Shown here piece by piece: positions 24-26,242 of a DNA stretch of 39,573 nt. The number at the start of each line of letters is the position of its first letter. Position 1 is the first letter of the stretch. The position numbers and the translations under genes are program-made. The DNA comes from Verrucomicrobiota bacterium. GTDB lineage: Bacteria; Verrucomicrobiota; Verrucomicrobiia; Verrucomicrobiales; DEV007. The DNA lies in NCBI GenBank assembly GCA_024277195.1, contig JAJRVS010000395.1:1-39573 (forward strand). Direction: 5' to 3'. A model generated the notes under the pieces. It worked only from the letters and a program-made list of their open reading frames with translations, was not told the DNA's origin and did not search any database.

Positions 24-1271
24 TCACGCCTGCCACCACTCTCCATCCTCGTGCATCTCCACATTAGAAAAAAGCTTAGAATAGCGTTCGGGCATAAAGC
101 TGTGAATGGGAATAACCTTTTTAGCCTCGATCGCCAAGGCTAATCGCTTGAGATCTGCGGTGCTAGCATGACCCGAGGTATGAATGCTCTGCTTCTCAAT
201 CCCGTGCTTCTGCAACCACTCTTTAGTCGTATCGCAACTTCCTCTCTCCCAATAGCCTTCCCATTGGGAGTGGATGAATGAAGATCCGTTCAAACACGCT
301 CCTCGTTCGAGATCAGCCATGTGCAATGACCGAAAGAGCAAAGTCGCTTCCTTCGAAACCTCATGGAGTTCCTCAATATAAATGCGATTGGACTTGTGAC
401 GCTGCAACAAATCAAACCATTTTTCTCTTTTGATCTGAACTCGCTGCTTCTGCGGAACATACAGCGCAAGCTCCGGCCAGTCCGATTGCGGAATACTCTG
501 GTTACCCGTCGCCTCTAGGATCGCTGCGGCATAAAGATCGATCACAAGCCTCCTCCCCGTCCGCTTAGAAGCCCGCATGATGGAAACCACACGGTCGATG
601 TTTTGAGCTGAAGTCTGCACCATAGCCAACCCCTCGGTATCGGAAAACGCTTTCACCAACTGCTCTTCAACATCGCTTTCCGTCGGAAAGGCTCGGTCAT
701 CGGCAATCCTACCAATCGTAGTGCCCTCCAGAATCAAAGCGTCTATGTTTTTAGGCGGATTCAATATCAACTTTTCAAAAATCGAAGCCTTGCGACCATG
801 GGCACGGAAATCACCACTGTAAAAAAGACGCTTCCCACCCGCTTCAATCAAAAAAGCGTAAGAATCATATGCGGAATGATCAACCAGATACGGCGTAACA
901 CAAAAAGGCCCCACATCGAAACTCTGTCCTGATTGGTAATCCCATCCTCTTGAAAGCGAATAGGCTCCCTCCCGCATAAAGGGAGCCGCAGCTTTTAGAA
1001 TCCTACGAGCCGCCGCTCCCATGCCAACCGAGATATTACCCGATAGATGCGCAAGTAATCCAAAATGATCAATATGCGGATGCGAAACCAGAACTCCCAA
1101 CAAAGTCGGATCACCACCATCCAAACCTACAATTTCGGGTAGATATTTTTCGTGACTCTCTCTCGCGTCCAAGGGCAGACCGAAATCAAGCAGCAACCTC
1201 TGTCCGTCGCACTCTAGCTCCACACAGCTACCGCCGACCTCCTTACTTCCTCTATGAATACAAACACGCAT
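24..1271 (-). CDS. RNase J-like MBL-fold/beta-CASP metallo-hydrolase
   Basis: A predicted zinc-dependent nuclease of the metallo-beta-lactamase/beta-CASP superfamily, 415 residues. The MBL motif SHPHIDHFG gives H64, H66, D68 and H69. Further ligand candidates are H132 (VDHSA) and D154 (YSGDFR). The beta-CASP part shows an acidic motif A (ALILEGT, E182), motif B (HTSGHAS, H368) and motif C (VIPIHSF, H390), as in RNase J and mRNA 3'-end-processing-like enzymes. It is shorter than RNase J (about 550 residues) and lacks its C-terminal extension. The ATG lies 10 bp after the stop of the DnaE-like gene, so the two are probably co-transcribed. Alternatives are a ligase-associated DNA exonuclease or a stand-alone RNase; no ligase or helicase is nearby. 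The fold is confident. Whether the substrate is RNA or DNA is unknown. Confidence 0.85.
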   Translation of the reverse strand: MRVCIHRGSKEVGGSCVELECDGQRLLLDFGLPLDARESHEKYLPEIVGLDGGDPTLLGVLVSHPHIDHFGLLAHLSGNISVGMGAAARRILKAAAPFMREGAYSLSRGWDYQSGQSFDVGPFCVTPYLVDHSAYDSYAFLIEAGGKRLFYSGDFRAHGRKASIFEKLILNPPKNIDALILEGTTIGRIADDRAFPTESDVEEQLVKAFSDTEGLAMVQTSAQNIDRVVSIMRASKRTGRRLVIDLYAAAILEATGNQSIPQSDWPELALYVPQKQRVQIKREKWFDLLQRHKSNRIYIEELHEVSKEATLLFRSLHMADLERGACLNGSSFIHSQWEGYWERGSCDTTKEWLQKHGIEKQSIHTSGHASTADLKRLALAIEAKKVIPIHSFMPERYSKLFSNVEMHEDGEWWQA

Positions 1272-1281
1272 GATATTGGCT

Positions 1282-3720
1282 TTAACTCTCTTCCCTGCTT
1301 TCCCACGAAGCCTTATAAATACCCATGCGTTGAGCCTCCTCTAAAATGATCTCACGTTTTCCGTCCCAGCTCTCAGAGCGCAAGAGCGCTTCCACAAATT
1401 CACTGGGATAATGCGCCTTCAGATAGGCCGTCTGATAGCTGGTGATCCCGTAGGCTATACTGTGCGATTTATTTAATACCTTAACGGACAAACCTTCTAA
1501 CCAGCCAAATAGCTCCTTCGCTTTTTTCTTGGAAATTTGATTCGTCCTCGCGCAACCTTCAACAAACAATCTAAATTCCTGCTTTCCCGTGATTTGCTTT
1601 TTCGCCATAGACCGGCGCAGTAGATCAGCCGTTCCCAAGCTCAGCCCCGATAGCAAACTTATAGCTTTCAGCAACTGCTCCTGATATATAAGCAAGCCGT
1701 AAGTTTCAGAGCAAACCTGCTCCAGCAAGGGGTGCAAATACTCTATTTTTTTCTTTCCACACTTCCTTTCCATATAAACGTCGATCTGTTCCATCTGCGC
1801 TGGGCAATACATTGCGATCAAGTCGCTGATATCTTCTATTCGGCTCACCCCCATACGCTTGCAAAGACTCGATATTCCACCCGACTCCATTTGGGGAACC
1901 CCAACCGTTTCACCCTGTTTAAATAGATCAAACGTAGATTTGTCCCTCAGATCAATCGTATCAATTTGGAAATCCGACTCTCGTTCCCGAATCAATTCCT
2001 CCGCATCTGCAATCACCGTCAAAGTTTTCAAACCTAGAAGATTCATCTTCAATAGTCCCAATTCAACCAAGGAGCCCATGGCATACTGAGTCACCAATTC
2101 CCCTTCGTGTCCACGGGTCAGCGGAATGTAATCCGATAAATCCCTGCCACTGATGACGATGCCTGCCGCGTGAATCCCTCTCCCACGCTGCATACCTTCA
2201 AGAAACTTCGCATAATCCCAAACCTGCTTGCTGACGACTTCTGTATCGAGCGCCTCCTTTAGCTTAGAATTTTTCTTTACCGCTATCTCAAGAGTAATGT
2301 TCAGCTCATTAGGAATCATTCTGGCTAGACGGCCCCCATCGTCGTAGCTCAGCCCCAACACTCTCGCCACATCGCGCACCACGCTTTTCGCTCCAAGGGT
2401 GCCGAAAGTTGCAACATGGGAAACCGCATATTCACCGTATTTCTGGCGTAGGTATTCAATCACTTCATCTCTCCTTACCTGACAAAGATCGATATCAATA
2501 TCCGGCGGAGAAACACGCTCGGGATTTAGGAAATTTTCAAAAACCAAACCAAAGCGTAGCGGGCAAACATCGGTGATTCCAAGAACATAATTCACCAGAG
2601 ATCCCGCAGCTGATCCGCGTCCGGGGCCAACAGGAATGCCATTTCCTCTCGCCCACTTGATCGCATCCTGGATGATGAGAAAATAGGACTCAAATATCAT
2701 CTCCTCTATGACCTCTATCTCATAATCAAGACGCGCTTTAAGTTCCGCGTCTGTATCTACCCTATCTCCATATCGAACTCGCAGTCCATCATTGCACAGT
2801 TTGCGAAAATACGCCTTCCGACTCAATTTGTGTGGAGGATCAAACTTTGGATATTTGGCCGAACTCATCGGATCAAGATCCATGCTAACCTCACAGCGTT
2901 CCGCAATAGCTACTGTATTGTGAATGGCTTCCGGCAATTCCTGAAACAAGTCACTCATTTCCTCACTTGTCTTGAAGTAGGTCTCCGGTGAATAACGCAC
3001 CCTGCGCTCATTACTTTGCAGCTCTCCCTCTCCAATGCAGACCAGCACATCATGCGCCTCATGATCACTCCGATCAAGAAAATGCACGTCATTTGCTGCT
3101 ACCAGTCCCAGATCAAACTCCTTGCCGAATTTGATCATCTGTTGGGCGCAAACATGCTGCTGCCTCAGACCGTGATCATGAATCTCAAGAAAAAAGTTTT
3201 CCCTCCCAAAAATTTCAGTAAATTCTTCCAGACTTTCCCGAGCTGCATCTATTTGCTCCTGCAATATTAACTGGTTAATCTCACCATTGATACTACCGCT
3301 CAAGCAGATCAATCCCTCAGAGTGTTCAGCCAGCAACTCCTTGTCAATACAAGCTTTGTGATCGCCCCCATCCAGATGAGCCCTGCTTACGAGTTTTATT
3401 AGATTATGCCAACCCTTGTTGTTCTGCGCCAGCAGGGTGAGGTGAGAATTCCTGCAACTTTCCAGAGCAGTTTTACCATCCTTTAATCTCACACCAGGAG
3501 AAGTCAGACTAAGTTCGCAACCGAGAATAGGCTTGATCCCCGCTTGAATGGCTTCTTTATAAAATTCAATAGCTCCAAAGAGATTCCCCTGATCCGTCAA
3601 CCCCACCGCCGACATCTTACAGCACTCTGCTTTCTGCATGAGTTGTTTTATTCTCACGGCACTGCCGAGCAGCGAATATTCAGTGTGGAGATGCAAATGA
3701 ATGAATGAATCAGATGACAT
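1282..3720 (-). CDS. C-terminally short DnaE-like (Pol III alpha) protein with altered active site
   Basis: A paralogue of the replicative DNA polymerase III alpha subunit, 812 residues against about 1160 in standard DnaE. The order is PHP domain (H10/H12 in HLHTEYS), palm (VGPGRGSAAGSLV and PDIDIDLC, with D407 and D409), and fingers (LLIYQEQ, GTADLLRRSMAKK, LNKSHSIAYGITSYQTAYLKAHYP). It stops right after the EAQRMGI segment, so the HhH, OB and tau-binding regions are absent. The residue expected to be the third catalytic aspartate (E. coli D555, in KFDFLGL) is N560 here (KMNLLGL, codon 2041-2043). Several PHP ligands also differ: LLDG reads LLGS, TDHG reads TDQG, and SGC reads SGS. The start is ATG 3720, which puts the PHP motif at the usual N-terminal place; the frame is open further up to a TTG at 3828. 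It may be inactive as a polymerase and act structurally, or be a DnaE2/ImuC-like relic. No imuA or imuB is nearby. Confidence 0.85.
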   Translation of the reverse strand: MSSDSFIHLHLHTEYSLLGSAVRIKQLMQKAECCKMSAVGLTDQGNLFGAIEFYKEAIQAGIKPILGCELSLTSPGVRLKDGKTALESCRNSHLTLLAQNNKGWHNLIKLVSRAHLDGGDHKACIDKELLAEHSEGLICLSGSINGEINQLILQEQIDAARESLEEFTEIFGRENFFLEIHDHGLRQQHVCAQQMIKFGKEFDLGLVAANDVHFLDRSDHEAHDVLVCIGEGELQSNERRVRYSPETYFKTSEEMSDLFQELPEAIHNTVAIAERCEVSMDLDPMSSAKYPKFDPPHKLSRKAYFRKLCNDGLRVRYGDRVDTDAELKARLDYEIEVIEEMIFESYFLIIQDAIKWARGNGIPVGPGRGSAAGSLVNYVLGITDVCPLRFGLVFENFLNPERVSPPDIDIDLCQVRRDEVIEYLRQKYGEYAVSHVATFGTLGAKSVVRDVARVLGLSYDDGGRLARMIPNELNITLEIAVKKNSKLKEALDTEVVSKQVWDYAKFLEGMQRGRGIHAAGIVISGRDLSDYIPLTRGHEGELVTQYAMGSLVELGLLKMNLLGLKTLTVIADAEELIRERESDFQIDTIDLRDKSTFDLFKQGETVGVPQMESGGISSLCKRMGVSRIEDISDLIAMYCPAQMEQIDVYMERKCGKKKIEYLHPLLEQVCSETYGLLIYQEQLLKAISLLSGLSLGTADLLRRSMAKKQITGKQEFRLFVEGCARTNQISKKKAKELFGWLEGLSVKVLNKSHSIAYGITSYQTAYLKAHYPSEFVEALLRSESWDGKREIILEEAQRMGIYKASWESREES

Positions 3721-7228: not shown

Positions 7229-7323
7229 ATTTCAAACTCACCTCTCCGTGGGCAGCGGGTGCAGGACAAAATAGTTAGACATTATTTATTAAAAGCTACC
7301 TTATCACACACCAACATCATTAC

Positions 7324-7336
7324 GCCCTTTCAGGGC
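7324..7336. repeat. Small GCCCT/AGGGC hairpin, REP-like
   Basis: GCCCT-TTC-AGGGC forms a perfect 5-bp stem upstream of the AAA+ gene. It resembles the hairpins AGCCC-AAA-GGGCT and CCCCGGAC-AAC-GTCCGGGG found at 35492-35536. It may be a short REP-type element; regulatory use is unproven. Confidence 0.4.
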
Positions 7337-7398
7337 TGGCAATAAAAAACAATCCAACCCCTCCCACTTTTCGAGTCAACACTACTGCTCACTTTTAA

Positions 7399-9522
7399 TT
7401 GTCGCTGCCCTTAATAGCGACCTATTATGTCGCACCTCGTGCTAAGCTATGGCAACAAAATAAATCTTATGCCGATCAGCCATTTCAAAACTGCCTTTCA
7501 ACGTCAATGCGCCCTTTGGATCCTGCGTGCCTTTCCCCCTCTGTGGGCAGGCGTCATTTTATTGGAGTATCTCGCCATGGCACTACCTATACAGACCATG
7601 ATATTTGTCGATATCTAAAAATTCCTGAACCAGATGAGAATTTTTCCCATGCTCAAGTGTTCGAAATAATGGACAAGATGCAAGCTGCTTTGGAGCTTAG
7701 TAATCGCATTATCGATTTACCCCTTCGCGCAAAGAAAAGTTTAAAGCTTTTCTCAAAATCAACAGGACTTCGTGAAGATGAATTAAAAGTTCTTGAGTTT
7801 TTTGTATGTCGGCAAATTGAAGCTGCATTAATAGACACTTGCCGAGTTCTTGACAAGTTCCTCCTATGTGATTCTGGCAGGTATTTAAGTAAGATGCTGG
7901 ATCTCCCTCAATCCACCGTCGAACGCTGTTTGGCATTAGACGGACCATTGAGAATCTGCGGGTTACTTGTTGAAGATATCCCTAACAACGTTGTCTTCAC
8001 CTCGACAGCAGCCGCACGGTTGCTCTTTTACAAAAAGTATAATGAAGTTGCGATCATGAAAGAATTTGGGGTGGCAGTTCCTGATGCTCCCAAACTTTCC
8101 TTAATTCACTACCCTCACCTGAAGGATGAACTAGGCCTCCTGTCAGCACACCTCAAACGAGTCACACAAAAGAAATGCCGTGGCGTCAATATTTTGCTGC
8201 ACGGTGTTCCCAGCACGGGCAAAACACAACTTACGCGCACAATCGGACAAGAGGTCGAAATACCCGTTTTTGAAATAAATACTTCAACTGGGGGAAAATT
8301 TCTCATTTCTCCCGAAGATCGACTCGAAAATCTAAGTTTTGCTGATACTTTTCTCTCCAATAGCCCTTCACTATTAGTCTTTGATGAAACCGAGGATGTT
8401 TTCAATTCATCATTTACCGAACGCTCCACCGCATCTTCTCACAAAGGCTGCTTCAATCAAATACTGGAACGCAACCGCTGCCCGGTTTTCTGGATCTCAA
8501 ATACCATCTGGGGGATGGACCCGGCATTTACCCGCCGCTTTGATATGATCATTGAAGTTCCCGTGCCTCGCAAAGCCGAACGCCGGGCAATCGTTGATTC
8601 CGTCATTGGTGATTTGATCGATGCGGAATGGGCGGGAAAAATCGCCGCCGAAGAAACCATCGCTCCAGCTGTTTTAGAGCGGGCTGGCAATGTGATCCGT
8701 AGCGTAAATGGAAAAGTCTCGCGAAGCCAGCAAGGCAAAAACGTAGCCCAGCTGCTTTCAAGCACCCTCAAGGCACAAGGCCATGCTGATCCTTTTAGGA
8801 GAAAAGCTGGGGCTGCGGATTGCAAGCACTACAATCTGGACTTTCTCAACACAAGTCAAGACCTCGGCTCCATCGCAAAAAACTTGCGCTCAAATCCATC
8901 CGCACGGCTTTGTCTGCACGGCCCAGCCGGTACGGGAAAAACCTCTTTCGGGCATTGGTTGGCCGCCGAACTCGATCTTCCCCTCATCACAAAAAAAGCA
9001 TCTGAACTGCTCGATCCCTATTTAGGCATGACCGAAAAACACATCGCAGCAGCTTTTGAAGAAGCCGCGAGCGAAGGAGCTATTTTATTGATAGATGAAG
9101 TGGATTCCTTTCTTGCTGAACGAACTCAATCGCGGAAATTCTGGGAAATCACCGCCGTGAATGAAATGCTCACTCAAATCGAATCCTTTACTGGTATCAT
9201 GATCGCTTCCACCAATCGCCTTGAAGCCCTTGATCCCGCCAGCTTGAGACGTTTTGATCTCAAGCTCTATTTTGATTATTTACGCGCAGAGCAAGTTGGG
9301 AATTTATTAAAAAAACAATGCCGGTTGCTCGGTTTACCCAAACCCTCAGCCAACAGCATTCGCGCAGCATCAAAGCTGACAGGTTGCACCCCGGGTGATT
9401 TTGCCTTGACGGCTCGTCGCCACCGCTTCGCGCCCTTTGCCCATGCGGATGACCTCATTGTCGCGCTCAAAGATGAACTCATTCACAAAAATATGATCAC
9501 TCGTCCTATAGGATTTATTTAA
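7399..9522 (+). CDS. Double AAA+ ATPase of a putative AAA-WYL-DUF2779 cassette
   Basis: A 707-residue protein with two AAA+ modules after an unassigned helical N-terminal region of about 250 residues. Module 1 has Walker A GVPSTGKT (269-276), Walker B LLVFDETED (D329, E330), and WISNTIWGMDPAFTRRFD as sensor and Arg-finger-like segment. Module 2 has GPAGTGKT (508-515), ILLIDEVDSF (D566, E567) and ASTNRLEALDPASLRRFD. The second module is closer to the ClpX/proteasomal-ATPase type consensus. The start is uncertain: TTG 7399 gives the longest frame, and ATG 7507 or ATG 7669 are alternatives without a clear ribosome site. The WYL gene follows 28 bp downstream. No protease, helicase or membrane part is visible, so it likely remodels a protein or nucleoprotein. 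The ATPase call is certain; the target is unknown. Confidence 0.88.
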   Translation: MSLPLIATYYVAPRAKLWQQNKSYADQPFQNCLSTSMRPLDPACLSPSVGRRHFIGVSRHGTTYTDHDICRYLKIPEPDENFSHAQVFEIMDKMQAALELSNRIIDLPLRAKKSLKLFSKSTGLREDELKVLEFFVCRQIEAALIDTCRVLDKFLLCDSGRYLSKMLDLPQSTVERCLALDGPLRICGLLVEDIPNNVVFTSTAAARLLFYKKYNEVAIMKEFGVAVPDAPKLSLIHYPHLKDELGLLSAHLKRVTQKKCRGVNILLHGVPSTGKTQLTRTIGQEVEIPVFEINTSTGGKFLISPEDRLENLSFADTFLSNSPSLLVFDETEDVFNSSFTERSTASSHKGCFNQILERNRCPVFWISNTIWGMDPAFTRRFDMIIEVPVPRKAERRAIVDSVIGDLIDAEWAGKIAAEETIAPAVLERAGNVIRSVNGKVSRSQQGKNVAQLLSSTLKAQGHADPFRRKAGAADCKHYNLDFLNTSQDLGSIAKNLRSNPSARLCLHGPAGTGKTSFGHWLAAELDLPLITKKASELLDPYLGMTEKHIAAAFEEAASEGAILLIDEVDSFLAERTQSRKFWEITAVNEMLTQIESFTGIMIASTNRLEALDPASLRRFDLKLYFDYLRAEQVGNLLKKQCRLLGLPKPSANSIRAASKLTGCTPGDFALTARRHRFAPFAHADDLIVALKDELIHKNMITRPIGFI

Positions 9523-9550
9523 CCCAATCACCCAATCACCCATAACCCTT

Positions 9551-10570
9551 ATGCCGAGAGTCAATAAAGAATCCACCCTGTCCCGTCAATGGGAGCTCAT
9601 GAAGCTGTTGCCCAGTCGTTTGCCTGGAAAAACCTCCAGCGAATTGCGCACCAACTTAGTGGACGCAGGTTATGATGTCACCAAACGAACCATCGAACGT
9701 GATCTTGTTGATTTGGCGAAAACCTTCTCATTGCTTAGCAATCAAAGCTCTAAACCCTACAGATGGTATTGGGAAAAAAGTGCACCCCTCACTATTTCCG
9801 CAATGAATCTGCCTGAAGCGGTCTCTCTCGGCTTGCTCGAAAATTTGCTTCGCCAGTTAGTTCCAGATACTTTTTATCGTGTTTTGAGAAGCCGTTTTGA
9901 CCAGGCTCGGAAAAAGCTAGGAAATCTGTCGAACAATCAATACGCTGAGTGGGCTGACATCGTTCGTTACATTCCTCCCGGCATAAGCTTCCTCCCTCCT
10001 GATATTCCCGCCAACCTCATGCATGAAGTGCAAAATGCTCTGCTCCAGCAAAAGCAACTCAAAATCGAATACCGCCCGGCAGACGCAAGTCAGAGCAAGG
10101 AACTATTGATCCACCCTCTGGCAATGGTTCAACAAGGAGTGCGCCCTTACCTTCTTGCCACTACCTTCAATTATGACAAACCCGTATTCTACGCCTTGCA
10201 TCGCATGGACTCCGCGGTGACAACAAGAGAAAAATCCCGGCGACCAAAAGGCTTCTCGTTGGAAAAATTCATGGATCGGGGCGGAGCCCAATTTGGAGGA
10301 GGCAAAAGCATCACCTTAAAAGCAAAAATCAGCGGCAGCTTGGCAGCTTTGCTCAAAGAAACACCGCTCTCGACCGATCAAAGAATTGTGGTAAAAAAAC
10401 AAGTGCAGCTTCTTACCGCAACCGTGTTTGATTCCTGGCAACTTCGCTTTTGGGTATTGTCACAAGGCGCCTCGATTCTTATTCAACAACCTAAAGCCCT
10501 AAAAAACGACATCGTCGCCGAGCTTGAAGAAACACTCAAATCCTACAGCGAGAACCAACTACCCCAATAA
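9551..10570 (+). CDS. WYL-domain transcriptional regulator
   Basis: A 339-residue protein with an N-terminal winged-helix DNA-binding region (about 8-60; RQWELMKLLPSRLPGKTSSELRTNLVDAGYDVTKRTIERDL, written here only to mark the family pattern SELR...TKRTIERDL). A central WYL domain follows (about 175-215), with LIHPLAMVQQGVRPYLLATTF; the eponymous Trp-Tyr-Leu reads Pro-Tyr-Leu. A C-terminal WCX-like extension ends the protein. WYL proteins sense nucleic-acid or nucleotide ligands and often control defence genes; that is family knowledge. Here it sits between the AAA+ ATPase and the nuclease gene, with gaps of 28 and 2 bp. It is probably the cassette's own regulator or ligand sensor. Confidence 0.88.
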   Translation: MPRVNKESTLSRQWELMKLLPSRLPGKTSSELRTNLVDAGYDVTKRTIERDLVDLAKTFSLLSNQSSKPYRWYWEKSAPLTISAMNLPEAVSLGLLENLLRQLVPDTFYRVLRSRFDQARKKLGNLSNNQYAEWADIVRYIPPGISFLPPDIPANLMHEVQNALLQQKQLKIEYRPADASQSKELLIHPLAMVQQGVRPYLLATTFNYDKPVFYALHRMDSAVTTREKSRRPKGFSLEKFMDRGGAQFGGGKSITLKAKISGSLAALLKETPLSTDQRIVVKKQVQLLTATVFDSWQLRFWVLSQGASILIQQPKALKNDIVAELEETLKSYSENQLPQ

Positions 10571-10572
10571 TC

Positions 10573-12066
10573 ATGCGCCACCTTTCAAAATCCAAAATCA
10601 TCGCTTATCGCCAATGCCCCAAACGCCTGTGGCTCGAAATCCATCGCCCAGACTTGCGTGATGATTCCAGTTCAGTGACCGCCTTTAGAATAGGCAACGA
10701 AGTAGGCGATGTGGCACGGGAGATCTATGATGATAATGGAACTCTCATCGAGATCGAAACTCTCGGATTCGAACAGGCTTTTGCCAAGAGTGCCGCTCTG
10801 CTGCAGAAAGGTGATGCCCCCATCTTTGAAGCAGGATTTAAAGCAGCCGGAGCACTGGCCTTCGCAGACGTGATGCTGCCACGGCTTTCAGAGTCCGGCC
10901 TCAGCTGGGATATGATTGAAGTCAAAGCAAGCACTGGCGTGAAAGACTATCACCGCGATGACATTGCCGTTCAGAATTATGTGGCAACTGCAGCTGGAGT
11001 GGATTTGACATCGGTTTCATTGGCGCATGTCAACAATGCCTTTGTCTATCCGGGCGATCGTGATTATCAGGGCCTGTTGCATGAAGTGGATTTCACCGAT
11101 GAGGTAAAATCCCGTCATGGAGAAGTTGCCAAGTGGATCGAAGAAGCTCGGAAAATCGCCGAACTCAGTGATGCGCCGGAAATTAAAACCGGTGAGCAAT
11201 GCCATCAGCCCCACCATTGTTCGTTCTGCAATTATTGCGCGCCTCACGAAGCGCCTGATGAAACCTCCGAGGAATACCCATTGTCCTCATTGCCTAATTT
11301 CAGTGCGGACAAACAGCAGGAAATGAAGTCACGAGCGATCTACGATCTGCGAGAAGTGCCCGATGACTATCTATCCTGGAAACAGTTGCGAGTGAAAGAA
11401 CAAAGCCAAACGGGTGAAGCTTATTTTGATGCCAAAGGAGCCGCCGCAGACCTTGCTCTCCACGGATTCCCCTCAAGGTTCCTTGATTTCGAAACCGCCA
11501 TGTTCGCCGTTCCTATTTGGAAAGGAACACGCCCCTACCAGCAAGTTCCTTTTCAATTCAGCCTTCACAACATAGATGAAACAGGCACTTTAATTCACCA
11601 TGAATTTCTCGATCTGAGTGGATCGGATCCCTCTGAAGCTCTCACCGTCGCACTGATAAAACACTGCGGCAATGAAGGCCCTGTATTCACCTACAATGCA
11701 AGTTTTGAAAAACGCGTCATGCGGGATCTAGGTGAACGTTTTCCACAGTACCAACTTGCTCTCGACGCCATCATAGCAAGGGTGATCGATCTGCTGCCTG
11801 TCGCCCGCAACCGATACTACCACCCGAGTCAACACGGAAGCTGGAGCCTCAAGTCCGTGCTGCCAGCAATCTGTCCCGAGCTATCTTACGAAAATCTCAC
11901 CGGCGTTGCGGACGGCAGCATGGCCGTCGATGCCTTCAAAGAAGCCATCGCCCTTGAAACCTCACCCGAGCAAAAGAAAACTATCGAGCACCAACTGCTC
12001 GATTACTGCCAACTCGACACCTTAGCTTTGGTGGAAATTTGGAAGTTTTTCCGTGGGATAAATTAA
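10573..12066 (+). CDS. DUF2779 protein: Cas4-like PD-(D/E)XK plus DEDD exonuclease-like domain
   Basis: A 497-residue protein. The N-terminal half resembles Cas4/RecB-type nucleases: C15 (YRQCPKRLW), D99, E116-V-K118, and a cysteine cluster C210, C216, C219, C222 that could hold an iron-sulfur cluster together with C15. The C-terminal half is the DUF2779 domain and looks DEDD/RNase H-like. It shows D305-x-E307 (FLDFETAMFA), YNASFEKR (N375, E379) and DYCQLDTLAL (D482). It starts 2 bp after the WYL stop, so it is translated from the same message. A nuclease acting on DNA or RNA is likely; the function of DUF2779 itself is not established. Length and motif order fit the family, and no residue appears lost. 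Confidence 0.87.
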   Translation: MRHLSKSKIIAYRQCPKRLWLEIHRPDLRDDSSSVTAFRIGNEVGDVAREIYDDNGTLIEIETLGFEQAFAKSAALLQKGDAPIFEAGFKAAGALAFADVMLPRLSESGLSWDMIEVKASTGVKDYHRDDIAVQNYVATAAGVDLTSVSLAHVNNAFVYPGDRDYQGLLHEVDFTDEVKSRHGEVAKWIEEARKIAELSDAPEIKTGEQCHQPHHCSFCNYCAPHEAPDETSEEYPLSSLPNFSADKQQEMKSRAIYDLREVPDDYLSWKQLRVKEQSQTGEAYFDAKGAAADLALHGFPSRFLDFETAMFAVPIWKGTRPYQQVPFQFSLHNIDETGTLIHHEFLDLSGSDPSEALTVALIKHCGNEGPVFTYNASFEKRVMRDLGERFPQYQLALDAIIARVIDLLPVARNRYYHPSQHGSWSLKSVLPAICPELSYENLTGVADGSMAVDAFKEAIALETSPEQKKTIEHQLLDYCQLDTLALVEIWKFFRGIN

Positions 12067-13001: not shown

Positions 13002-14906
13002 ATGGCTAAAAGAGAAGCGGGCAGCTACACCGAAGACGACATCAAATCCCTCGACTGGCGGGAACACATCCGCCTGCGTCCAGGCATGTACATCGGCAAA
13101 CTAGGCGACGGCTCCTCCAACGATGACGGCCTCTACATCCTGCTCAAAGAGGTGATCGACAACTCGATCGATGAGTTTGTGATGGGATTTGGCAAATTGA
13201 TCGAAATCGAGATCGATGAAACGTTTGTCCGTGTGCGCGACCACGGCCGTGGCATCCCACTCGGCAAGCTGATGGATTGTGCCGCCAAAATCAATACCGG
13301 AGCCAAATACGACTCCGAAGCTTTCAAAAAATCGGTCGGTTTGAATGGGGTCGGGATCAAAGCGGTCAACGCGCTGTCCCATTTTTTCGAAATCCAGTCG
13401 GTGCGCGAAAACAAAACCAAAGCGATCGAGTTCTCCCGAGGCGAAGTGACGGACGAAGTCAAAAACGCTCGCAAAACGTCCGAAACCAACGGCACCTCGA
13501 TCTGTTTCGACGCCGATACAGAAATCTTCGGCGAGTTCAAATGGAACCTCGATTTTGTCGAGCAGATGCTGCGCAACTACGCTTATCTGAACACCGGGCT
13601 GACGCTCAGTCTCAACGGCAAAAAGTTCAAATCAAAAAACGGACTGCTCGATTTGCTCACGGAAAACCTAGGCGACCAGGAATTGCTCTACCCCATCGCC
13701 CACCTATCGGATCACGACATCGAAGTCGCCATCACTCACACCGAGCAAAGCGGCGAAGAATATTACGCTTTTGTCAACGGTCAGCACACCACCATGGGAG
13801 GAACCCACCTCGCAGCTCTGCGTGAAGGCATCGTCGCCACCATCCGCACCCACTTCAAAAAACAATACGAAGCCGCCGACATCCGCAACGGCATCGTCGC
13901 TGCGATCAGCATCAAGGTCGAAGAACCCGTTTTTGAGTCGCAGACCAAAACCAAACTCGGCTCATCCCTGATGGCACCCAAAGGCGAATCGGTGCGCTCT
14001 TTTATCGGCAACTTCCTCGGTCAGCACCTCGACAACCACCTGCACCGCAACCGCGATGCGGGTAAGGCTCTGGTGGAAAAAATCACCCGCTCCGAACGTG
14101 AGCGCAAAGAGCTCAAGGGAATCAAAAAACTCTCCCGCGACCGTGCCCGGGCATCCAAGGTTCACAACAAAAAGCTGCGTGACTGTCGCGCCCACCTCAA
14201 TACCCGCCATAAAAAGCGCGAGGCCAGCACTCTGTTCATCACTGAGGGTGATTCGGCCAGCGGTTCGATCACCAAAGCACGCGATGTCGAAACTCAGGCG
14301 GTGTTCAGCTTGCGCGGCAAACCCAAAAACACTTTTGAACTCACTCGCAAAATTGTTTACGAAAACGAAGAGTTCAATCTCTTGCAAGCAGCGCTCGACA
14401 TCGAGAACAACATGGACAACCTGCGCTACAATAAAGTCGTCATAGCGACCGATGCCGATGTGGATGGCATGCACATCCGTTTGCTGTTGCTGACTTTTTT
14501 CCTCCAGTTTTTCCCCGACCTGATCCGCGACGAGCACGTCTACATCCTGCAAACCCCACTGTTCAGGGTGCGCAACAAAAAGGAGACCCGTTATTGTTAC
14601 TCCGAAGAGGAACGACACGATGCGATCAAAGCACTCAAACCCAATCCCGAGATCACCCGATTCAAAGGGCTGGGGGAGATTTCACCCGATGAGTTCAAGG
14701 ACTTCATCGGCAAAACCATGCGCCTCGAGCCAGTCATCATGCCGCCTTCCCCGCGCGCTATTGAGGAATTGCTGACTTTTTATATGGGGAAAAATACTCC
14801 CGAGAGACAGCAATACATCATCAAAAACCTGCGTGTCGAAACCGACATCATCGATGACGATCCCGACACAAGCGTAGCGGATCAAAGTGCGGACAGTGCC
14901 GCTTAA
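13002..14906 (+). CDS. parE: DNA topoisomerase IV subunit B (ParE/GyrB type)
   Basis: The ATPase subunit of a type IIA topoisomerase, 634 residues, which decatenates or relaxes DNA together with the next gene product. The GHKL ATPase has [22 protein letters not shown] and [15 protein letters not shown] in its first 130 residues. The transducer follows ([15 protein letters not shown]). The TOPRIM domain has TEGDSASGS with E415, then [12 protein letters not shown] and [13 protein letters not shown]. The length fits ParE or short GyrB proteins, without the long insert of E. coli GyrB. parC begins 20 bp downstream. ParE is chosen over GyrB because of the pairing with a short A subunit. A true gyrase is probably elsewhere in the genome. 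Confidence 0.93.
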
Positions 14907-14926
14907 CTTTTTATATTTTCTGACTC

Positions 14927-16909
14927 ATGGCCGACGGAAACACACCTGTAAATACCAACATCTCGATGAAAGGGATGTACTCCGACTGGTTCCTCGATTA
15001 TGCCAGTTACGTCATCCTCGAGCGTGCGGTGCCGCACATCGATGACGGCTTGAAGCCCGTGCAACGACGCATCCTGCACTCTTTCAAAGAAAAGGACGAC
15101 GGACGTTTTAATAAAGTGGCTAACATCGTTGGTCACACCATGCAGTATCACCCGCATGGCGACGCCTCGATCGGCGCCGCCATCGTCAACCTGGGTCAAA
15201 AAGATCTGCTGATCGAAACCCAGGGGAACTGGGGCAACTTGTTAACTGGCGACAACGCCGCCGCCCCTCGATACATCGAAGCGCGTTTATCAAAATTCGC
15301 CAACGATGTGCTGTTCAACCCCAAGACTACCACTTGGGCCGCCTCCTACGACGGACGCAACAAAGAACCGGTCACCCTGCCCTCCAAGTTTCCTCTCACT
15401 CTAGCGCAAGGCGTGGACGGCATCGCCGTTGGCCTCGCCTGCAAATTCCTGCCACACAATTTCATCGAACTGATCGATGCCTGCATTTGCTCACTGAAAA
15501 AAGAGCCTTTTGAACTCTTCCCCGACTTTCCACAAGGCGGCATCGCCGACCCCTCCGACTACAACGACGGGCTGCGCGGCGGCAAGGTGCGGGTGCGGGC
15601 ACGCATCACCGCCACCCGGCGCAAACAACTGACCATCACCGAACTGCCCTACGGCACCACCACCGTCAGCCTGACCGACTCGATTCTCAAAGCCAACGAT
15701 CAAGGCAAAGTCAAGATATCCAAAATCGAAGACAACACTGCGGATCAAGTCGAGATCCATATCTACCTGCCGCCGGGTGTCGATGCCGATCAGACCATCC
15801 AGGCTCTGTACGCTTTCAGTGATTGTGAAATCTCGCTCTCGCCCAACTCCTGTGTGATCGAGGACAACAAACCGAAGTTCCTCACCGTCACCGAGATCCT
15901 GCAGCGCTCTGCCAAACGCGCGCGCAACCTACTGAAAATGGAGTTGGAGATCCGCCTCGCGGAACTCGAGGAAAAATGGCACTTCTCCAGCCTCGAAAAA
16001 ATCTTTATCGAAAACCGCATCTATCGTCGCATCGAGGAATGCGAAACCTGGGAAGCCGTGATGGAGGAAATCTGGGAAGGGCTGAAACCTTTCCTCAAAC
16101 TTTTCAAACGCGAAGTCACCGCCGAGGACGTCGCGCGTCTGACCGAGATCAAAATCAAACGTATTTCCAAATACGATGCCTTCAAGGCCGACGAGCAAAT
16201 TCGCAATATCGAAACGGGCATCGCCGAGGTCAAAAAAAACCTGCGCAACCTGACCAAATACACCATTGCCTGGTTCGAGAACATCAAACAGAAATACGGC
16301 AAAGGTCGCGAACGCTTGACCGAGTTGTCCACCTTCGACAAGATCGATGCCAAGCAGGTCGTGGTCGCCAACGATACGCTCTACATCAACCGCAAGGAGG
16401 GTTTTGCCGGATGGAGCATGAAACGCGACGAGACCGTCTGCCGGTGCTCACGCATGGACGACATCATCGCCTTCAGCCGTGACGGCAACATGCGGGTGGT
16501 TAAAATCGCCGACAAGGTTTTTGTCGGAAAGAATAATATCCTGGTTGATGTTTTCCGCAAAGACACCCCCAAGTTCTACAACATGATCTACCGCGACGGA
16601 CGTCAAGGCAACGCCCTGGCCAAACGCTTCCAAGTGTCTGGAGTCACTCGAGAAAAACTCTACGACCTGACCAAAGGCACCGCCGGCACCCGGGTGATGT
16701 GGCTGTCCGAGCACGACACCGAAGAAGACGCCAACATCAAAATCCGCATTCACCTGAAACCCGCCCTGCGGCTTAGAAACGTACAGATTGATTTCGACTT
16801 CGGCGAACTATCGATCAAAGGCCGCGGCTCAAAAGGCAACATCATCACCCGCCACACCATCGACCGCGCAGTGCGCATCTCCAAAGCCGAGCTAGAGCTG
16901 GAAGGCTAA
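14927..16909 (+). CDS. parC: DNA topoisomerase IV subunit A (ParC/GyrA type)
   Basis: The DNA-cleaving subunit, 660 residues. The winged-helix/tower core starts at YASYVILERAVPHIDDGLKPVQRRIL and contains HPHGDASIGAAIVNLGQ. The catalytic tyrosine is Y116 in AAPRYIEARLS. A coiled-coil region lies at about 330-460 (LLKMELEIRLAELEEKW). The C-terminal 170 residues form a short, divergent pinwheel-like domain (LYINRKEGFAGW, IIAFSRDGNMRVVKI); no GyrA box of the QRRGG type is seen. This supports topoisomerase IV over gyrase. The gene ends convergently, overlapping the acpS stop by 4 bp, which leaves no room for a terminator between them. Confidence 0.92.
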   Translation: MADGNTPVNTNISMKGMYSDWFLDYASYVILERAVPHIDDGLKPVQRRILHSFKEKDDGRFNKVANIVGHTMQYHPHGDASIGAAIVNLGQKDLLIETQGNWGNLLTGDNAAAPRYIEARLSKFANDVLFNPKTTTWAASYDGRNKEPVTLPSKFPLTLAQGVDGIAVGLACKFLPHNFIELIDACICSLKKEPFELFPDFPQGGIADPSDYNDGLRGGKVRVRARITATRRKQLTITELPYGTTTVSLTDSILKANDQGKVKISKIEDNTADQVEIHIYLPPGVDADQTIQALYAFSDCEISLSPNSCVIEDNKPKFLTVTEILQRSAKRARNLLKMELEIRLAELEEKWHFSSLEKIFIENRIYRRIEECETWEAVMEEIWEGLKPFLKLFKREVTAEDVARLTEIKIKRISKYDAFKADEQIRNIETGIAEVKKNLRNLTKYTIAWFENIKQKYGKGRERLTELSTFDKIDAKQVVVANDTLYINRKEGFAGWSMKRDETVCRCSRMDDIIAFSRDGNMRVVKIADKVFVGKNNILVDVFRKDTPKFYNMIYRDGRQGNALAKRFQVSGVTREKLYDLTKGTAGTRVMWLSEHDTEEDANIKIRIHLKPALRLRNVQIDFDFGELSIKGRGSKGNIITRHTIDRAVRISKAELELEG

Positions 16910-24938: not shown

Positions 24939-26084
24939 CTAAGTATTATCTTGGGAAAAACCCGGCTCCTCAGGGGCAGGAGGCGCAGGCGGTGCTGGTT
25001 GCGGACGATTACGGCTCGTAGTGCTAGTTGATGTCGAGGTATTATTCGAAGTATTTTCCTCCGTCACCCCACTGGAAGTAACCGCAGAGTTTTTACGACG
25101 CACGATTTTAAACATACGCTCTGCCAAGTGACGACGGCGCGGTTTGAAGACACTAGCCAACATGCTGCGCATTTCTCCCTGACCCCAGGGAATCTCGATA
25201 CTCACTGAAGCCAACCAGTTGTCGCGATAAAGCTGCTCACTTTCAAACCAAGTAGTGCCTATCACCAGGTTGGGCACTGGCCGGGCTTCAACCCCTATAC
25301 GCCAGCCCTCGATATTAGAGGTCGCCTTACGGTCACCAGTGAAGCCATAATAACCACCGATCAATTGCAAATCCATATACTTGTCGATACCCGGCACCAG
25401 AAGTGCCAGCTCTACATCCCAACCTTCCAAAGCTTCTTCATATGTTTCAAACACACTGCGAGTCGTCGTCGTCGTCTTAGTCGTCCTGACGGCTCTGGAT
25501 GATGCACTCGTGCTCGACGACGTGCTGCTCGAAGTCGTGGTGCGACGGCTGATAACATTTTCATCGCTTAAAGGAATGTAGTAATTTGCCCGAAATTCAA
25601 TGTAGCGCGATCCTGCCTCCAAACCCAAACCCGCTTGCCAAAAATTCCCGCCATTGCCCGTGCTCGCATAATCGATGAAGGCATTGGCTCCGATAAACAC
25701 CCCCTCCCCCAACAAACCGGGATCAGTCACGCTCATCGCCTCGCTGACACTTTGATTGCTGAACAAACGGCGATAACCCAAACCTAAAGAAGCTCCCAAT
25801 TCACCGCCACTCGCCCATGTATTGTAAGATTCCACAAAAAAGGTCGACCCATCCATGGTGCCCCCTTCCCCAATGGTATTATTCCAAGGATACAAAAAGA
25901 ACAAGTTTCCCTCGACAAACTCACCATTGAACTTCACCCCCTTGCCCACATTGCCAGCCGTCCAGGCGGGGTCGAGGCTGACTTCTTCAACCGCTTTAGC
26001 GCTCACCTCTCCGGCTTGCGACGAAGTGACAAATAGCGGGGCCGAGCAAAGAGCAAGCGCCAGAGTAGTACAGATACGTTTCAT
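24939..26084 (-). CDS. Inverse-autotransporter-type outer-membrane beta-barrel protein
   Basis: A 381-residue secreted protein with a signal peptide (MKRICTTLALALCSAPLFVTSSQAG, cut near residue 24). It resembles the inverse autotransporter (intimin/invasin) beta-domain: GELGASLGLGYRRLFSN, GANAFIDYASTGNGGNFWQAGLGLEAGSRYIEFRANYYIPL, with alternating barrel strands. A Ser/Thr low-complexity insert at about 180-215 interrupts the barrel, probably in a surface loop. The C-terminus is Ser/Thr- then Pro-rich (PAPPAPPAPEEPG). No bacterial Ig passenger domain follows, unlike classical invasins. It may be a stand-alone barrel or adhesin remnant. The family is likely but not certain. Confidence 0.72.
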   Translation of the reverse strand: MKRICTTLALALCSAPLFVTSSQAGEVSAKAVEEVSLDPAWTAGNVGKGVKFNGEFVEGNLFFLYPWNNTIGEGGTMDGSTFFVESYNTWASGGELGASLGLGYRRLFSNQSVSEAMSVTDPGLLGEGVFIGANAFIDYASTGNGGNFWQAGLGLEAGSRYIEFRANYYIPLSDENVISRRTTTSSSTSSSTSASSRAVRTTKTTTTTRSVFETYEEALEGWDVELALLVPGIDKYMDLQLIGGYYGFTGDRKATSNIEGWRIGVEARPVPNLVIGTTWFESEQLYRDNWLASVSIEIPWGQGEMRSMLASVFKPRRRHLAERMFKIVRRKNSAVTSSGVTEENTSNNTSTSTSTTSRNRPQPAPPAPPAPEEPGFSQDNT

Positions 26085-26242
26085 AGAAGAATTTGGTTCA
26101 GGAGACAACGAGTTGGACTACAGAAAAGCTCAGCTTTCATCTACATAGTTCGTTGCCATCCAGCTATAAGTAAATTCTCCAACTATGTCAATTTTTTCCT
26201 AACAATACAAGAGACTAGGAAAAAATACCCATTCCTTACTCC

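Follow-up and report, generated by a model that had tools for sequence, protein, structure and literature searches.

DNA polymerases of the C family carry three aspartates, D401, D403 and D555, which a survey of about 2000 genomes states to be absolutely conserved (PMC3919608). Their PHP domain has nine metal ligands, HHDHEH(C/H)DH, according to the table of Barros et al. (PMC3666897). In the DnaE of E. coli the PHP domain is a variant one, in which metal ligands are lost and the fold is kept; the short DnaE paralogue described here likewise has lost metal ligands in this domain, whereas E. coli DnaE retains an intact polymerase triad and ligand 3 (D19) and is essential (PMC3666897). The steric-gate His of the E. 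coli enzyme is H760, which lies in the NKSH motif (PMC8485763). The sections consulted of a 2026 survey of bacterial polymerases describe Y-family proteins and PHP domains that are inactive, and contain no inactive C-family polymerase (PMC12926913). The ImuB/iPolY proteins resemble the short paralogue in being polymerase homologues with a disrupted active site, but in the account given by the same sections they belong to the Y family, are widespread and have conserved partners, and nothing comparable was found for the short copy (PMC12926913). No inactive or truncated DnaE paralogue is described in the literature searched, which was mostly that available without subscription.

Domains and active sites of the short DnaE paralogue

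The window, the whole stretch of 39,573 nucleotides that was analysed, encodes a short dnaE paralogue of 812 aa on the reverse strand (1282..3720), with its ATG at 3720 and its stop at 1282-1284; an in-frame TTG upstream of the ATG would lengthen the frame to 3828. Pfam (PHP, DNA_pol3_alpha and DNA_pol3_finger), NCBIfam, alignment to solved DnaEs and a fold search of the model all gave PHP, palm, thumb and fingers in this order. With Pfam and alignment to E. coli and Taq DnaE, the PHP domain was placed at residues 1-283 (2872..3720, PF02811) and the palm and thumb at residues 284-565 (2026..2871, PF07733), and Pfam placed the fingers at residues 566-801 (1318..2025, PF17657). The NCBIfam matches were to DnaE families; the cut-off of the superfamily model TIGR00594 was reached and that of no equivalog model, and the best match reaches no further than about position 802 of the 1146 in its profile. 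Since phmmer E-values against solved DnaEs range from about 1e-156 to 1e-192, chance resemblance is not an issue. DnaE homology stops at residue 801, the truncation point; beyond it the alignments leave 11 unmatched residues and the stop codon (1282..1317). Compared with the full-length protein, about 375 residues are absent from the window, and the short copy lacks the C-terminal HhH/clamp-binding, OB and tau-binding part, of which the window has no remnant; the loss proposed in the earlier note is thereby confirmed, although its figure of about 350 residues was somewhat low. The 812 codons contain no internal stop or frameshift, and the two single-codon deletions are both in frame. The GC3 of the short copy is 0.49, compared with 0.59-0.63 in full-length dnaE.

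Two of the catalytic aspartates, D407 and D409, are retained (codons 407-409, 2494..2502), as seen in the alignment and in a comparison with 43 full-length DnaEs. The third is replaced by Asn at codon 560, which reads AAT (2041..2043). In the phmmer alignments N560 pairs with Taq D618 and with E. coli D555, the latter within KFDFLGL, with no gaps nearby, and all three catalytic positions hold Asp in 43/43 of the full-length DnaEs, which come mostly from the same family. The claim that D407 and D409 are kept and the third Asp is N560 was thus borne out, and the alignment to E. coli and Taq DnaE that the earlier note had proposed as a check leaves no other Asp at the third catalytic position. 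Also retained in the short copy are D411, both LRRSM Arg residues and NKSH with its steric gate.

The remainder of the palm and fingers had been described beforehand as well conserved, and this was not supported. Among the positions that are invariant over this set of 43 DnaEs, the short copy has changed 51/302 (17%), whereas three full-length comparators have changed 1/303, 1/303 and 2/302 (<1%); two of these comparators (L006 and L017) are at variable positions at least as distant as the short copy. By part, the changes number 13/87 in the PHP domain, 10/115 in the palm and thumb and 28/100 in the fingers, an excess in the fingers over the rest (Fisher P 0.0005). Several finger motifs are broken: RPGPM has become CPAQM, AMGKKK has become SMAKKQ and, in the run-up to the O-helix (residues 739-749 in the alignment, 1474..1506), the EKFAGYGF that precedes NKSH has become EGLSVKVL. 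As the finger motifs are broken too, the case for lost catalysis stands on more than one residue. Judged from its sequence, the short copy is a duplicate of DnaE1 that lacks a working polymerase site, and it belongs to the DnaE family by descent alone; two of the tested features that define an active DnaE are absent, namely the full set of three catalytic Asp residues and the C-terminal HhH/clamp-binding, OB and tau-binding part.

In the PHP domain the ligands H10, H12, E69, H93, D211 and H213 are kept. The alignment gives Asp to Gly at ligand 3 (codon 19, 3664..3666), a change also present in the sister-species copy, His to Gln at ligand 4 (codon 44, 3589..3591) and Cys to Ser at ligand 7 (codon 143, 3292..3294). 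These are exactly the three differences that had been read from LLGS, TDQG and SGS. Positions 3, 4 and 7 of the nine-ligand set of an active PHP exonuclease are therefore G, Q and S, while the full-length DnaEs of the genus keep all nine ligands.

An AlphaFold model of the short copy reached a pLDDT of 68.6 and a pTM of 0.47, and the full-length DnaE of the same genome, modelled as a control over the same span and alignment, reached 70.4 and 0.52. The best PDB matches of the short-copy model are DnaEs. Because both models, of moderate confidence, are poor in the palm, they do not separate a kept from a lost fold, and they neither support nor weaken the former.

Descent of the short copy and its counterpart in a sister species

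A profile search of the contigs of this genome (5.49 Mb, 422 contigs, estimated contamination 1.28%) gave one other DNA_pol3_alpha match, a complete and ordinary DnaE (contig C41) that is 67% identical to the short copy. Over residues 1-801 the short copy is 67-68% identical to DnaE1 of the same genome and genus, with which it has in common the order of PHP, palm, thumb and fingers and two of the three catalytic Asp residues; unlike the short copy, these DnaE1 proteins have the third Asp, all PHP ligands, the finger motifs and the C-terminal part (HhH/clamp-binding, OB, CTD). Placement with the genus DnaE1 by descent is supported by ultrafast bootstrap values of 85-100 on the relevant splits and by 64-72% identity. 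Assignment to DnaE2 (ImuC) was rejected, as the short copy is 67% identical to DnaE1 and the second-class C-family matches in relatives are 26-33% identical; no proteins of the imuA or imuB types were found among the scanned neighbours of the short copy.

A second DnaE1-like gene occurs in 1/75 genomes of the family, that of a sister species (G001, Verrucomicrobiota bacterium isolate CSMAG_116, metagenome-assembled). Other apparent dnaE doubles in genomes of the family are contig-end fragments, and that in one of them (G453) consists of overlapping contig ends at 84% identity, probably from mixed strains. Two scans of named genomes gave no orthologue in the first and, in the second, the G001 record and distant DnaEs; the viral contigs searched gave DnaEs at 27-38% identity only.

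The sister copy (DAOUQC010000017, contig L023 9059-10366) has 436 codons and is homologous to the short copy up to about residue 434 of the latter. It is the sister sequence of the short copy, lies in the same neighbourhood and has losses in common with it, including PHP D19G and palm R396N; in contrast to the short copy it is only 436 aa long, keeps 8/9 PHP ligands and carries D407E and D409N, reading PPEINIG where active DnaEs have PPDIDVD. Whether orthologues carry the same Asn had been proposed as a check, and the sole orthologue found ends before the third Asp position and lacks the fingers together with some of the palm. In an LG+G4 tree the two copies pair at an ultrafast bootstrap of 100, beside the DnaEs of the genus. 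Both are long branches and attraction is a possible cause of their grouping, but the six identical changes that they carry at invariant positions, such as D19G, P37S, I66L, I227V or like, R396N and F412L, would argue against it. The two copies are 68% identical to each other, and the full-length DnaEs of the same two species are 91% identical over residues 1-432 and 97% over residues 433-801.

Selection on the short copy and its possible fates

Custom-written codon models (GY94-type, F3x4, with branch classes) gave an omega of 0.15 for the whole branch of the short copy (G000) and 0.026 for full-length branches, values that are rough, with synonymous sites near saturation on several branches. 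Over the whole branch both omega = 1 (2ΔlnL 31.7) and equality with the background (2ΔlnL 29.9) were rejected, and dN/dS was below one in every domain; constraint on the short copy is relaxed five- to six-fold relative to full-length DnaE. Omega was unequal between the parts (2ΔlnL 32.9, 2 df), at 0.127 in the PHP domain, 0.111 in the palm and thumb and 0.256 in the fingers, the least constrained part, where the background is 0.021. In the sister copy it was 0.129 in the PHP domain and 0.347 in the palm remnant (unequal, 2ΔlnL 22.6), and the mean BLOSUM score of this remnant, -0.47, compares with about -0.5 under neutrality. Constraint is thus lowest nearest the truncation in both species, which fits decay from the C-terminal side. 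On the terminal branch of the short copy alone omega was about 0.27 and omega = 1 was not rejected (2ΔlnL 3.3). When this branch, with about 211 substitutions, was simulated as neutral, about 8 stops were expected and the probability of none was about 0.0007, while up to about 60 neutral substitutions without a stop were still plausible (P 0.08). The low dN/dS and the open frame together indicate that the short copy was long under selection, and for the same reasons its losses at invariant positions cannot all stem from a recent neutral phase. We conclude that selection acted on it over most of its existence and may have been lifted recently, or still acts weakly.

The account that we favour, with moderate confidence, is of a lineage-specific dnaE (DnaE1) duplicate, now in decay, whose polymerase chemistry is gone. 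The duplication would have preceded the split of the two species and the copy would have been useful for a long time, as suggested by the low dN/dS and the open frame; selection would then have weakened, most of all on the C-terminal side, and in this genome the 3' end would have been lost at the point where an MBL-hydrolase gene now abuts. The protein, if still made, should neither copy DNA nor attach to the clamp by way of the usual C-terminal part, which in E. coli DnaE is the clamp-, OB- and tau-binding part, and would at most bind DNA or partners of the N-terminal half. What sits uneasily with decay is the open reading of all 812 codons against the stops expected on a neutral terminal branch, and a dN/dS below one in every domain, which together mean that decay was held in check over most of the copy's existence. 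These same data favour the main rival, a less likely but serious candidate, in which a non-catalytic protein is kept by selection, for example to bind DNA or a partner through its PHP and palm parts. Such a protein would agree with an omega of 0.11-0.13 in the PHP, palm and thumb, with the constraint on the PHP domain even in the sister copy and the retention of a PHP-containing piece by both species, and with R396N and D19G, which are found in both copies and probably predate the split, so that both lineages would have kept an already altered copy. It is harder to reconcile with the terminal branch, on which neutrality was not rejected, with lengths that differ by species and a sister palm remnant that changes almost neutrally, and with the fact that the searches found no orthologue beyond these two genomes and that there is no conserved partner gene. 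The earlier proposal that selection keeps the fold without the chemistry stands in so far as there is no competent site and the frame has been selected (dN/dS 0.15, no stops); the extent of change at invariant sites and the absence of fingers and part of the palm from the only orthologue look more like decay than like a kept fold.

Other explanations carry less weight. That the copy has simply been a pseudogene ever since it arose, its frame staying open by chance, is improbable: its truncation, accelerated change, lower GC3 and restricted distribution would all follow, but its whole-branch dN/dS is far from 1, none of the roughly eight expected stops has appeared and its two small deletions are in frame. 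A slim chance is given to a dead DnaE kept by selection in a variable, partly defence-like neighbourhood, acting without catalysis as a decoy or sensor for phage proteins that attack the replicative polymerase, or as a binder of replisome partners of the N-terminal half, for which the open frame, the constraint on the PHP part in both species, the PDC-S26 candidate nuclease beside the sister copy and the IetA-like AAA gene near both copies could be cited. We regard an assembly or binning artefact as very unlikely; the gene does lie near a contig end, in an assembly of many contigs with some estimated contamination, but its contig has RsgA, YchJ, Fic, AAA, WYL and DUF2779 genes in common with the sister genome, an independent assembly that holds a related copy. 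Least credible of all is a polymerase that is still active, perhaps error-prone, with Asn 560 or a neighbouring acid substituting for the lost Asp. The retention of D407, D409, D411, both LRRSM Arg residues and NKSH with its steric gate is set against a triad reported as absolutely conserved in the C family (PMC3919608), against the broken RPGPM, GYGF and AMGKKK motifs and the missing C-terminal clamp-binding part, and against a sister copy that has lost the other two Asp residues.

This pair of sister species has a DnaE1 duplicate that has persisted without a triad reported to be absolutely conserved (PMC3919608), broken differently in each. If decaying, it offers a clear snapshot of a duplicate replicase being lost from the C-terminal side; if kept, it would be a C-family pseudo-polymerase, of which none is described in the literature searched.

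The adjoining MBL-hydrolase gene and the wider neighbourhood

An MBL-fold/beta-CASP (RNase J-like) hydrolase of 415 aa with an HPHIDH motif is encoded on the same strand (24..1271) and starts 10 bp after the dnaE stop. Despite this spacing, a conserved MBL-dnaE operon was rejected, with a DnaE paralogue beside the MBL gene at 0/11 loci examined. Relatives of the MBL gene were found in 13/388 genomes of the phylum, this one included, and also on rhizobial, Ochrobactrum and Sphingomonas plasmids, the closest being mostly alphaproteobacterial, and there the genes beside it are different ones; the near relatives have the family at marginal scores at most. At several of these loci a conserved protein of about 330 residues and of unknown kind comes next. 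The MBL gene is probably an unrelated acquisition from a mobile, plasmid- and island-borne family, and the short dnaE may have lost its 3' end when this gene arrived. A distant MBL homologue (29-32% identity) lies divergent from a dnaE start at a contig end in another genome (G373, L088 1-2025), which we read as coincidence.

The two copies lie at different points of the same neighbourhood. That of the sister species sits between the AAA gene and the Fic gene, adjoining a PD-(D/E)XK candidate defence gene rather than an MBL gene, and that of the window sits beyond YchJ, on the other side of RsgA; no flanking sequence is common to them and their homology starts at the start codon. A repeatedly rearranged region would account for the same neighbourhood with a different site. 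Neither the short DnaE nor the MBL protein matched a PADLOC model. The PD-(D/E)XK protein (L023 7727-8971, forward strand), encoded immediately upstream of the sister copy, matches the PADLOC candidate PDC-S26.

Further along the forward strand of the window, 7399-12066 encodes a two-AAA-module ATPase, a WYL regulator and a DUF2779 protein, a block that is conserved in G001 at 66-85% identity and lies near the short dnaE in both genomes. The second module of the ATPase matches models of the anti-phage ATPase IetA/IteA, and the DUF2779 protein has weak Cas4-like matches. A dispersed repeat of about 106 bp, MITE- or REP-like, lies at 7256-7361; about nine copies are present in another sister genome (G002), and copies are also found near dnaE in this genome. 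Adjacent GyrB/ParE-like and GyrA/ParC-like genes, the former with a weak C-terminal match, occupy 13002-16909 on the forward strand, and 24939-26108 on the reverse strand encodes a protein with an inverse-autotransporter beta-domain (PF11924).
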